64,000 nt of DNA from Amycolatopsis benzoatilytica AK 16/65 (lineage in GTDB: Bacteria > Actinomycetota > Actinomycetes > Mycobacteriales > Pseudonocardiaceae): positions 7,444,388 through 7,508,387 of the forward strand of contig NZ_KB912942.1 in NCBI RefSeq assembly GCF_000383915.1, in the 5' to 3' direction. Below the pieces are notes generated by a model that did no database searches, was not told where the DNA came from, and was given only the letters and a program-made list of their open reading frames with translations. Position numbers and translations under genes: made by a program. The number at the start of each line of letters is the position of its first letter. Position 1 is the first letter of the stretch. Of the stretch, positions 3-16,687 are shown in pieces.

Positions 3-317
3 GCCGACGGCGGACTGGCGCAGGCCCTCACCGAGACTGTCCTGATCGGACAGTGCGGGGCCCGGGTCTTCCTCGACCGCGACCAGGACCCGTTCGTGCA
101 GCTGTTCTCCGAGTCGTCCGGCCGCGTCTTGGTGGCCGTCCCGCGCACGGAAGAGCTGCGGTTCACGGAAATGTGCACCGCCCGCGGCCTGCCGTGGCGC
201 AAGACCGGCGTGGTCGACCCGGAGTCGGGAACGCTGGAACTGCAGGGCGTCACCGAGTTCACCACCCAGGAACTGCGCGAGGCGTGGGAGAGCACGCTGC
301 CGGCGCTGTTCAACTGA
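3..317 (+). CDS. purL: Phosphoribosylformylglycinamidine synthase II, C-terminal end (partial)
   Basis: The reading frame enters from the left edge and ends at a TAA/TGA-class stop after ALFN. About 104 residues are visible. The run ADGGLAQALTE, the GARVFLD stretch and the closing part with SGRVLVAVP match the C-terminal AIRS-like lobe of PurL, which converts FGAR, ATP and glutamine-derived ammonia to FGAM in purine synthesis. PurF and PurM lie 8-10 kb downstream on the same strand, supporting the call and matching the purL-purF-purM order of mycobacteria. The N-terminal six-sevenths of the protein, including the catalytic centre, lies outside the window. The gene ends just before a long palindrome that probably stops transcription. 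Confidence 0.92.
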   Translation, partial: ADGGLAQALTETVLIGQCGARVFLDRDQDPFVQLFSESSGRVLVAVPRTEELRFTEMCTARGLPWRKTGVVDPESGTLELQGVTEFTTQELREAWESTLPALFN

Positions 318-328
318 GGCGCTAGCCG

Positions 329-381
329 GCCGTGAAGGGAACATTGAGGGACTCAGAGTCCCTCAATGTTCCCTTCACGGC
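329..381. repeat. 53-nt perfect palindrome (copy A of a repeat family)
   Basis: Two 26-nt arms are exact reverse complements around a single central A. The arm begins GCCGTGAAGGGAACA and ends TTGAGGGACTC. It lies between the convergent purL and pentapeptide-repeat genes. Its right arm contains the TGA stop codon of the pentapeptide gene. It could act as a bidirectional terminator, but no clear T-tract follows. Related copies are at 25851-25898 and 27797-27851. Confidence 0.9.
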
Positions 382-13969: not shown

Positions 13970-15035
13970 TCCGCGGGCGCTGCACCCCGGCGCATGGTGG
14001 GGGTGGGCGCTCGCGCTCGCTGTCGCCGCGAGCCGCACCACGAATCCGCTGCTGTTGGCGCTGGTCATCGCGGTTGCCGGGTTCGTCGTGGTGCTTCGTC
14101 GCGGCGACGCGCCGTGGGCTCTGGCGTTCCGGATGTACGCCTGGGTCGCCGGCGTGATCCTGGTGTCCCGTGTGCTGTTCCGGATCCTGATCGGGGGAGA
14201 CGAAGGCGGGCACGTCCTGTTCACGCTGCCGACTATCCCGCTGCCGAAGGTCGCTGCCGGCATCCAGCTTCTCGGCCCCATCTCGGCCGAGGCGTTGCTG
14301 GGCGGCTTTTACGACGGCCTCCGGCTGGCCGCGATCGTGCTGTGCGTCGGTGCCGCGAACGCGCTGGCGAACCCGAAACGCCTGCTCAAAGCCGTTCCCG
14401 GAGCGCTGTACGAGGTGGGCACGGCGGTCACGGTCGCGCTTTCGGTCGCGCCGCAGTTGGTCGAGAGCGTCCAGCGAGTGCGTCGTGCGCGCCGGCTTCG
14501 GGCCGGTCGGACGCGTGGTTTGCGTTTCGTGAAGGGGATCTTCGTGCCGGTGCTGGCCGACGCTATGGACCGGTCACTGCAGCTCGCCGCGGCGATGGAT
14601 TCCCGCGGTTACGGACGGCGCGGCTACCTTTCGCCGCGCATCCGGCTGCTCATCGCGACCTGCGTGCTGGCTGGGCTGGTCGGCGTCGCGGTGGGCGTGT
14701 ACGGCGTGCTGGACGGGTCGTCGTCGTGGCTCGGCCTCCCGATGCTGATCGTCGGCCTCGGCCTGGCCGCCGCCGGATTCGTGGTGGGAGGACGGCAAAT
14801 CCAGCGCACGACTTACCGGCCCGATCCGTGGCGGCTGCCGGAAACGCTGGTCGTGTTGTGCGGCGTCGCCACCGCGGTGCTGATGCTGGTGGCGGACCCG
14901 GTTTCGCTCGCTACCTCGGCCAGTCCGCCGACCTGGCCGGAGCTGCCGCTGCTGCCGACGGTCGCGGTGCTGCTCGGCGTGTTGCCCGCTTGGTTCGCGC
15001 CGCGTCCGGCGCTGGCGTCGGAGGTCGCCCAATGA
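13953..15035 (+). CDS. ecfT: ECF transporter T component
   Basis: The 360-residue membrane protein starts at a GTG overlapping the previous gene by 17 nt. It has several hydrophobic helices (LLLALVIAVAGFVVVL, the block YAWVAGVILVSRVLF, later LIATCVLAGLVGVAVGVYG) and the EcfT coupling helices with Ala-Arg motifs: RRARRLRAG and AAMDSRGYGR. These contact the paired ATPases. The protein is longer than typical EcfT because of an extra C-terminal membrane region. It joins the ATPase and the substrate-binding S protein; the downstream gene overlaps by ATGA. Confidence 0.9.
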   Translation: MLRTTDPRALHPGAWWGWALALAVAASRTTNPLLLALVIAVAGFVVVLRRGDAPWALAFRMYAWVAGVILVSRVLFRILIGGDEGGHVLFTLPTIPLPKVAAGIQLLGPISAEALLGGFYDGLRLAAIVLCVGAANALANPKRLLKAVPGALYEVGTAVTVALSVAPQLVESVQRVRRARRLRAGRTRGLRFVKGIFVPVLADAMDRSLQLAAAMDSRGYGRRGYLSPRIRLLIATCVLAGLVGVAVGVYGVLDGSSSWLGLPMLIVGLGLAAAGFVVGGRQIQRTTYRPDPWRLPETLVVLCGVATAVLMLVADPVSLATSASPPTWPELPLLPTVAVLLGVLPAWFAPRPALASEVAQ

Positions 15036-16687
15036 TCGAGTTCTCGCACGTCAGCGTCACCTACGACGGGGCGGACCATCCGGTGCTCCGCGACGTCAGC
15101 TTCGTCATCGAGGAGGGCGAACTCTGTCTCGTCGCAGGCCGGACCGGAGTCGGCAAGTCGACATTGCTGGGTGCGATGAACGGGCTTGTCCCGCACTTCA
15201 CCGGCGGCGTGCTGTCCGGCCGGGTCGAGGTCGACGGCCGGGACACCGCGACCCATCCGCCGCGCGAGCTGGCGTCGGTGGTCGGCATGGTCGGGCAGGA
15301 TCCGCTGGCCGGGTTCGTCACCGACACCGTCGAGGAAGAACTCGCCTACGCGATGGAGCAGCTCGCCATCGCGCCGGACGTGATGCGCAAGCGCGTCGAG
15401 GAAACCCTGGACTTGCTCGGTATCGCCGAACTCCGCAACCGCCCGCTTCGGACGCTTTCGGGCGGGCAGCAGCAGCGGGTCGCGATCGGCGCTGTGCTCA
15501 CCGCGCACCCGAGCGTGCTGGTGCTGGACGAGCCGACTTCGGCGCTCGACCCGACCGCGGCCGAGGAAGTGCTGGCCGCGATCACCCGCCTGGTGCACGA
15601 CCTCGGCACGACGGTCGTGGTCGCCGAGCATCGGATGGAGCGCGTCGCGCAGTACGCCGACCGCCTGCTTTACCTGCCTGGCGACGGCACCGTCGTGTCC
15701 GGCCCGCCGGCGGAAGTCTTCGCCGAGACTGACGTCGCACCGCCGATCGTGGAGCTGGGCCGGCTCGCGGGCTGGTCGCCGCTGCCGTTGTCGGTACGCG
15801 ATGCCCGCCGTCTCGCCGGTCCGCTCCGGGACCGCCTGTCCAAACACCCCAATGCCACATTGGGTGCGTCAGATGCACCCAATGCCACATTGGGTGCACC
15901 GCATGCACCCAATGCCACATTGGGGCGCGCTGGGGAGGTGGTGCTCAAGGCGAATGGGGTGTGGGTCCGGTACCGCGGAGTGCACGCGGTTCGCGGTGTC
16001 GACCTCCAGCTGAACCGAGGCGAAGTCGTCGCGTTGATGGGCCGCAACGGCTCGGGCAAGTCCTCGCTGCTGTGGGCGCTGCAGGGCAGCGGACCCCGGT
16101 CGGCAGGCGTCGTGGACGTGCTCGGCGTGGACCCGAAGACGCTGCGGACCCGCGCCGCTCGCACCCGGGTCGGCCTGGTCCCGCAAACCCCGGCGGACCT
16201 GCTGTACCTCGATTCGGTCGCGGCGGAATGCCGCCAGGCCGACGCCGAATCCGGCGTGGAATCCGGTACCGCGCGCGCGTTGCTCGACCGGCTCGTCCCC
16301 GGGGTCGCCGACGAGACGAACCCGCGCGACCTGTCCGAGGGCCAGCGCCTGGCCCTGGTCCTCGCCGTGCAGCTGGCCGCCGCGCCGCCGGTCGTCCTGC
16401 TCGACGAGCCCACTCGCGGCCTCGACTACCCGGCGAAGCGGCACTTCGCGGCCATCCTCGCCGGCCTCGCCGCCGGCGGACACGCCGTCCTGCTGGCCAC
16501 CCACGACGTCGAGTTCGTCGCGTCCGCCGCACACCGCGTCGTCGTCCTCGCGGAAGGTGAAGTGGTCGCCGACGGCCCGACCGCCGATGTTGTCGTGGCC
16601 TCGCCCGCCTTCGCGCCGCAGGTGGCCAAGATTCTCGCTCCGGAACCCTGGCTCACGGTCGAGGCAGTGGCAAGGGCGCTAGCGTGA
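15032..16687 (+). CDS. ecfA: ECF transporter fused ATPase (A and A-prime halves)
   Basis: The 551-residue protein contains two ABC ATPase domains. Domain 1 has Walker A GRTGVGKST (about residue 37), signature LSGGQQQR, Walker B VLVLDEPTS and the H-loop AEHRM. Domain 2 has GRNGSGKSS (about residue 336), signature LSEGQR, VVLLDEPTR and the H-loop ATHD. The signature of domain 2 is LSEGQ rather than LSGGQ. Between them, residues 272-298 are encoded by three copies of a palindromic repeat with a 30-bp period and read NATLG plus spacers. It overlaps ecfT by ATGA and ecfS by GTGA, so the four genes form one operon. Confidence 0.93.
   Translation: MIEFSHVSVTYDGADHPVLRDVSFVIEEGELCLVAGRTGVGKSTLLGAMNGLVPHFTGGVLSGRVEVDGRDTATHPPRELASVVGMVGQDPLAGFVTDTVEEELAYAMEQLAIAPDVMRKRVEETLDLLGIAELRNRPLRTLSGGQQQRVAIGAVLTAHPSVLVLDEPTSALDPTAAEEVLAAITRLVHDLGTTVVVAEHRMERVAQYADRLLYLPGDGTVVSGPPAEVFAETDVAPPIVELGRLAGWSPLPLSVRDARRLAGPLRDRLSKHPNATLGASDAPNATLGAPHAPNATLGRAGEVVLKANGVWVRYRGVHAVRGVDLQLNRGEVVALMGRNGSGKSSLLWALQGSGPRSAGVVDVLGVDPKTLRTRAARTRVGLVPQTPADLLYLDSVAAECRQADAESGVESGTARALLDRLVPGVADETNPRDLSEGQRLALVLAVQLAAAPPVVLLDEPTRGLDYPAKRHFAAILAGLAAGGHAVLLATHDVEFVASAAHRVVVLAEGEVVADGPTADVVVASPAFAPQVAKILAPEPWLTVEAVARALA
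15848..15924. repeat. Three 17-bp palindromes at 30-bp period inside ecfA
   Basis: CCCAATGCCACATTGGG occurs exactly at 15848-15864, 15878-15894 and 15908-15924. Each has 7-bp arms (CCCAATG/CATTGGG) and a CCA spacer. The 13-bp spacers differ in part (TGCGTCAGATGCA, TGCACCGCATGCA) but begin TGC and end TGCA. The 30-bp period keeps the ABC frame and encodes NATLGASDAP, NATLGAPHAP and NATLG. The element is intergenic-repeat-like but sits in a coding linker. Confidence 0.95.

Follow-up and report, generated by a model that had tools for sequence, protein, structure and literature searches.

A dispersed palindromic repeat with a 30-bp pitch, likely REP-like and mobile, read in frame in the linker of a putative ECF-type ATPase of Amycolatopsis benzoatilytica

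The window analysed here, a stretch of 64,000 nucleotides from Amycolatopsis benzoatilytica AK 16/65, contains an open reading frame for a protein with two ABC ATPase halves, whose context points to a double ATPase of the ECF type. Inside this frame lie three copies of the 17-mer CCCAATGCCACATTGGG, starting at 15848, 15878 and 15908, with a pitch of exactly 30 bp and in frame (Table 1). By its coordinates the array corresponds to residues 273-298, between the two ATPase halves, and it reads HPNATLGASDAPNATLGAPHAPNATLGR. The initial annotation had described three exact copies with a 30-bp period, encoding NATLG-type units in the linker of an ECF ATPase, and the coordinates and the reading frame bear this out. 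When up to three mismatches were allowed, the window held seven matches to the 17-mer (six of them being the three copies seen on two strands), where shuffled sequences lead one to expect 0.08. In a structure model of the ATPase (17 aligned sequences, mean pLDDT 74.7, pTM 0.53) residues 249-298 have a pLDDT below 50, and the residues encoded by the array are predicted to form a disordered linker. The early suggestion that frame and flexibility permit an array at this place agrees with its in-frame position in an interdomain linker of predicted disorder.

Table 1. Coordinates of the repeat array, its host gene and members of a second palindrome family
Feature	Position	Strand	Basis
Host ORF, 551 aa, two ABC ATPase halves	15032..16687	+	Pfam ABC_tran, two stretches
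Element with 3 flanking bases per side (CAC before, GCG after)	15845..15927	.	53-cluster flank table
Palindromic unit 1, CCCAATG-CCA-CATTGGG, outer unit	15848..15864	+	exact match
13-bp spacer TGCGTCAGATGCA, near-palindromic itself	15865..15877	+	sequence
Palindromic unit 2, middle, exact here	15878..15894	+	sequence
13-bp spacer TGCACCGCATGCA	15895..15907	+	sequence
Palindromic unit 3, outer unit	15908..15924	+	exact match
Second palindrome family, window	317-374		
Second palindrome family, locus L039	633-696		
Second palindrome family, locus L058	1448-1501		
Second palindrome family, locus L066	1157-1234		
Second palindrome family, locus L074	11552-11668		

The repeat is dispersed, not local. 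The genome that contains the window (G000, 8.70 Mb) has 107 exact copies of the 17-mer, 63 forward and 44 reverse, and none of the same palindrome read backwards, which served as a control. Leaving the three bases of the loop free again gave 107 copies, so every loop is CCA or TGG. The copies fall into 53 clusters, commonly flanked by C-R-C before and G-Y-G after. Among the 37 with at least two exact copies, 36 space these at multiples of 30 bp; the exception, L038, is made of two neighbouring arrays and was left out of the unit counts, which therefore refer to 52 clusters. These have 2 to 7 units each, three being the commonest size (36 of all 53 clusters), and the units are separated by a spacer of 13 bp that is itself mostly near-palindromic, mostly of the form TGCRT-NNN-AYGCA.

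The units of an array are not equivalent. An exact sequence is seen in 88 of 104 outer units but in 14 of 63 inner ones (Fisher p 6e-16), clusters having been located via exact copies, so that fully degenerate arrays were missed; the other 49 of the 63 inner units carry at least one change. The commonest inner form (27 of 63) has one changed arm with one specific change, CCCAATGTGGCATTCGG, and this may mark a fixed asymmetric middle module. The window thus carries an ordinary member of the dispersed family, here with its middle unit exact, and not a private expansion. The idea that the repeat had expanded inside the gene finds no support, since arrays of three units predominate among the dispersed copies and exactness differs between outer and inner units. 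A long hairpin pairing the two outer units was considered and rejected, the outer loops of the 36 three-unit clusters being in the same orientation in 21 and in opposite orientations in 15 (hand count). The genome also contains a second dispersed palindrome family, CCGTGAAGGG or like, followed by GA(A/C)TC, then by GATTC or GAGTC, and then by CCCTTCACGG or like, which sits in convergent gaps and in the corresponding slots of relatives (Table 1).

The distribution of the palindrome among genomes is patchy. It is carried by 44 of 80 genomes of the genus, the carriers having 1 to 153 copies, and by 52 of 390 genomes of the family. In G213, which belongs to another genus, there are 90 copies, against 0 or 1 in each of its seven congeners; G329 has 15, and the other carriers outside the genus have 1 to 3. 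A stricter pattern scan of 74 stretches gave as named carriers Amycolatopsis nivea, dendrobii, jejuensis, orientalis, echigonensis and coloradensis, together with Prauserella shujinwangii. A control palindrome of like composition, CCCAAAG-N3-CTTTGGG, occurs in 4 of the 390 genomes with at most 2 copies, and at that rarity we do not retain it as a related sister family.

The palindrome and its pitch are constant, whereas the spacers vary by lineage. Two-unit clusters dominate in G213 (55 of 58), and in 50 of these the loops are opposite; spacers there follow the pattern GRCAT-NNN-ATGYC, with TGYC and GRCA as flanks. For G072 the analysis covered 49 clusters, drawn from the first 100 of its 145 copies and leaving aside those at the very beginning of contigs; their spacers are of the kind GRACTTNAAGTYC, and 23 lie inside a larger mosaic repeat. 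The latter arrays (among L293-L341) have conserved flanks of tens of bases, and many arrays of this genome have an extra palindrome arm resembling GTGAAGG..CCTTCAC on the left.

The ATPase gene itself was found in 70 of the 80 genus genomes at the cut-off used, and 30 loci were fetched. The linker contains the array in G000, G048 and G020 and a degenerate form in G004; it is without an array in the 26 other loci. Seven of the array-free relatives are 89-90% identical, with a gene 19 to 20 codons shorter, the 77-bp array replacing about 20 nt of linker. The initial annotation had supposed that the repeat may vary between strains, and both the number of copies and the array of ecfA do differ among related genomes. 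In a gene tree built after removal of most of the linker the carriers do not form a clade; by our own, untested count, this corresponds to three gains, or to one gain and three losses, in one group of ten members, plus G004. We considered a transfer of the array with its flanks from G000 or G020 into G048 and found no support for it, because the nearest 120 bases on each side in G048 are closer to the seven array-free relatives (91-98%) than to G000 and G020 (86-88%). Since the carriers are not a clade and the flanks of G048 resemble those of array-free relatives, gain or loss of the array has probably occurred more than once at this one linker.

Most copies lie outside genes. With genes called by a purpose-made codon-usage model, which may miss some, 50 of the 53 clusters of G000 are intergenic (rechecked), as expected if the palindrome is of an intergenic type, which had been the initial proposal. 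Convergent gaps outnumber divergent ones by 21:5 in G000, 25:3 in G213, 27:3 among the named loci (15 of these 75 loci lacking a called neighbour on at least one side) and 27:1 in G072. Within the same stretches the convergent share is 18 of 36 gaps with an array against 21 of 151 array-free gaps in G000, and 18 of 38 against 2 of 45 in G213. When the neighbouring genes are co-directional, the array is nearer to the stop than to the next start in 22 of 24 gaps in G000, 21 of 24 in G213, 20 of 28 named loci and 12 of 16 in G072.

This placement recalls transcription terminators. No T-run was seen directly after the hairpins when the clusters of G000 and G213 were read by eye, so the arrays do not qualify as textbook terminators. 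Among the convergent gaps of G000, a canonical terminator was detected in 0 of 18 that hold an array and in 3 of 21 that do not; the corresponding figures for G213 are 2 of 18 and 0 of 2, and these counts do not demonstrate a mutual exclusion of the two. Two convergent sites were compared with relatives. At L063 we took 20 of 30 loci (our own, eight with a single flank and eleven relatives with both flanks); among these eleven the array was present in none and hairpins lay in the gap in all, several of them with T-runs, while G073, G071, G045 and G011 have other long palindromes in the slot, instead or besides. At L018, for which all 30 loci were used, none of 29 relatives has the array; hairpins with T-runs are present in 11 close relatives, other inverted repeats in G020, G073 and G034, and more distant relatives have short gaps without an evident hairpin. 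At both sites, the array thus occupies a slot where close relatives keep a hairpin. The array may act as a terminator behind genes, albeit one without a T-run. Searches of four loci against Rfam gave nothing above the gathering score and only matches to microRNA models below the cut-off.

A minority of clusters is intragenic: 3 of 53 in G000, 6 of 58 in G213, 0 of 49 in G072 and 2 of 75 named loci. In G000 they lie in the ATPase and in two genes named by eye, one NuoG-like and one for an E2 acyltransferase (for the latter, Pfam was run on a named E2 relative); the hosts in G213, also named by eye, are four PKS dehydratase regions, one AMP-binding protein and one C-terminus, and both named loci are NuoG-like. 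All 11 clusters are read in the frame that gives PN(AT/VA)LG, with coding copies in both loop orientations (NAT and NVA), so that the frame-keeping copies in other genes that one would look for do exist. A second test, in which coding-like open frames were sought on both sides in any of the six frames, gave 3 cases in G000, 4 in G213 (the PKS ones), 0 in G072 and 2 among the named loci, again in the PN frame only; since it keeps only the four PKS cases of G213, the AMP-binding and C-terminal ones are less secure.

In the E2 acyltransferase (L057; named proteins P0008-P0011) the array lies between the lipoyl and E3-binding domains in several Amycolatopsis species. P0001 of A. nivea has ten tandem PN(VA/AT/AA)LGAS-A units at residues 539-634, in the linker of a glycosyltransferase/WS-DGAT fusion. 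The PKS arrays of G213 (L212 at 2000 and 6908, L213 at 2664, L227 at 2000) are all at the same place, after HAEG, reading VPNATLG..VALGAK and followed by WPP; the regions around them resemble module copies, and the four were probably copied along with modules.

How far does the uniformity of frame go beyond what open frames alone allow? In the 49 intergenic clusters of G000 used here, frames 0, 1 and 2 are open in 45, 48 and 29 on the plus strand and in 48, 47 and 31 on the minus strand; the 52 of G213 give 52, 49 and 39, and 52, 51 and 40. In these two genomes frame 1 is therefore about as open as the PN frame and frame 2 somewhat less, and in G072 (49, 23 and 49, then 48, 30 and 49) frame 1 is the less open one. 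The chance of uniformity is about 0.0026 with six independent genes (three per genome, G000 and G213) and about 0.02, by hand, if only the four genes passing the second test are counted (PKS alone for G213), so that the uniformity is modest statistical evidence. Matched protein searches, run with one 40-residue stretch in each of its three frames, returned 12, 1 and 0 proteins. The 12 include the window's own protein, the near-duplicate pairs P0001/P0002 and P0003/P0005, and also P0012, a protein lacking any Pfam domain and with an N-terminal array; P0013, the single frame-1 protein, is of the same doubtful kind as P0012.

The closest likeness is to REPs, which are described in PMC3733652 as short (20-40 bp), high-copy palindromes, mainly extragenic, found in convergent and co-directional gaps downstream of coding regions, with a GTAG or CGTC tetranucleotide at one stem end according to the superfamily, and whose intragenic members the authors place in flexible linkers. 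Like REPs and BIMEs, the present elements are high-copy, short, grouped, downstream of genes and occasionally intragenic, and CGTC occurs in about half of the spacers of G000; their unit of 17 bp fits the size of a REP only with its spacer (30 bp). They differ in having no tag fixed across lineages and no Y1/RAYT gene found in their own genome, in their strict, codon-commensurate pitch and near-symmetric units, and in the single frame of all intragenic copies. Rickettsia palindromic elements, of about 150 bp and with nearly half of the R. conorii copies in genes, are likewise in-frame palindromic repeats in unrelated genes, with a recurrent encoded peptide (PMC10969869); our elements are 17-bp units on a 30-bp pitch in actinomycetes, intragenic at the low proportions given above for G000 and G213. 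The enterobacterial RU-1, RU-2 and RU-3, MITE-like small mobile sequences of 103 to 168 bp, are intergenic repeats with open reading frames, also present inside annotated genes, but are not short palindromes on a fixed pitch (PMC2759123). Among the papers searched, none has the 17-mer, CCAATGTGGCATTGG, PNATLGA or PNVALGA in its text, and none of the matches listed for palindromic repeats in Amycolatopsis or Pseudonocardiaceae concerns this element; term searches found no mention of Amycolatopsis in PMC12306157 and nothing relevant in PMC3610266 and PMC4210621.

No candidate for the agent of movement came out of our searches. PF01797, for Y1 (RAYT-type) transposases and the one transposase family searched, has 0 matches in G000. 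A REPtron-like gene between neighbouring arrays was looked for by eye among the called genes of three stretches of G213 with two arrays each, and no transposase was recognised there. CGTC occurs in 57 of 115 spacers in G000, 18 of 55 in G213 and 0 of 48 in G072, and GTAG in 0 of 115, 0 of 55 and 1 of 48, so neither is a fixed tag. In contrast to what one expects of a MITE, no target-site duplication stands out, the best of 700 combinations of offset and length per genome reaching a z of 3.7 in G213 and 3.2 in G000. Insertion into the loop of an existing hairpin was tried as an explanation and is not supported, because the complementarity of the flanks does not exceed that with flanks from other clusters (4.15 vs 4.15 of 10 in G000, 5.41 vs 5.83 in G213). 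Viral contigs, plasmids and phages gave 0 matches to the palindrome, the 96-bp BLAST searches being weak tests. We infer mobility from comparative evidence, that is, from the patchiness and the array-free sites.

Several other explanations have to be weighed. That these are canonical REPs moved by a RAYT, a Y1 HUH transposase, is in our opinion very unlikely: the mosaic arrays, the preference for convergent and co-directional gaps and the occasional intragenic copy are as in PMC3733652, and CGTC is the tetranucleotide of one REP superfamily, but the profile search was empty and the distribution of CGTC and GTAG across the three genomes is not that of a fixed tag. An immobile functional element inherited vertically (a terminator, an mRNA 3' protector or a protein binding site), with patchiness due to loss, has more in its favour, namely the strong 3'-end and convergent placement, the U-tailed hairpins that fill the slot of close relatives at two sites, and the stable predicted folds of four arrays, some with flanks (-48.5 to -75.4 kcal/mol, without a shuffled comparison). 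We nevertheless hold it to be unlikely, given the range of copy numbers within one genus, the contrast between G213 and its congeners, the spacers that differ by lineage around a constant 17-mer, and the copies inside genes.

The two remaining alternatives start from the gene. If the PNATLG peptide had a function in linkers, the palindrome would simply follow from its codons; unrelated linkers share the peptide (ABC ATPase, NuoG-like, E2, WS/DGAT, PKS dehydratase, AMP-binding), and the initial annotation had reasoned that a peptide kept over divergent DNA in distant species would favour such a motif. This is in part what we see, G004 (76-78% identical) having PNAALGTSDAPKATLGTSSAPKATLG at the same ATPase linker, with peptide-like units kept despite the drift of the DNA. 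The rest speaks for a DNA element first: unrelated hosts share the units, the same exact 17-mer makes up the intergenic clusters, close relatives have the same ATPase without the peptide, and coding copies show both loop orientations, so that we consider a selected motif improbable. Even less credible, and the least so of all, is a local tandem expansion of one hairpin by slippage within the gene, without mobility. It would suit the variable numbers of units, the spacers that can be alike within one array and the ten units of the WS/DGAT protein, but the same 17-mer is present in 53 clusters, slippage is not expected to give exact outer units around inner ones mostly altered in one way, and nearly all clusters of G213 are pairs, mostly with opposite loops.

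We think it likely that the window contains a local copy of a dispersed palindromic element which spreads as a REP-like, non-autonomous mobile unit, lies mostly just behind stops, and within genes is found only in the PN(AT/VA)LG frame, in a linker of predicted disorder. Such an element would move in trans by means of some enzyme, or by recombination. Behind genes, its hairpins would serve as a 3'-end structure that replaces the hairpin of relatives. The bias of frame could reflect purifying selection, since the other two frames would give peptides rich in Trp, His and Met or in Cys. A unit and its spacer together span 30 bp, so that a gene can acquire or shed units and stay in frame, and the element would be tolerated in linkers because the PN frame does no harm and the pitch is divisible by three.

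A bolder version of this proposal is tentative, and we would rather bet against it. The element would be commensurate with the genetic code, either strand offering one bland-linker frame (PN-AT/VA-LG plus a spacer like A-S-D-A) in which any number of 30-bp units remains in frame; its movement would need no RAYT and no target-duplicating insertion, the element being exchanged for a short stretch instead (a hairpin behind a gene, about 20 nt of linker within one). It would then be both an exchangeable 3'-end hairpin and a recurrent source of linkers, and would have entered the linker of this ATPase more than twice or so, in several separate events.

The observation is larger than first described, since it concerns a REP-like family with a codon-commensurate pitch. 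It offers a clear case, in actinomycetes, of a REP-like palindrome that supplies peptide linkers to core enzymes; the three reading frames provide an internal control for selection, and close relatives provide array-free sites. Two questions thereby become testable: how palindromes spread without a RAYT, and whether arrays replace terminators at convergent gene ends.
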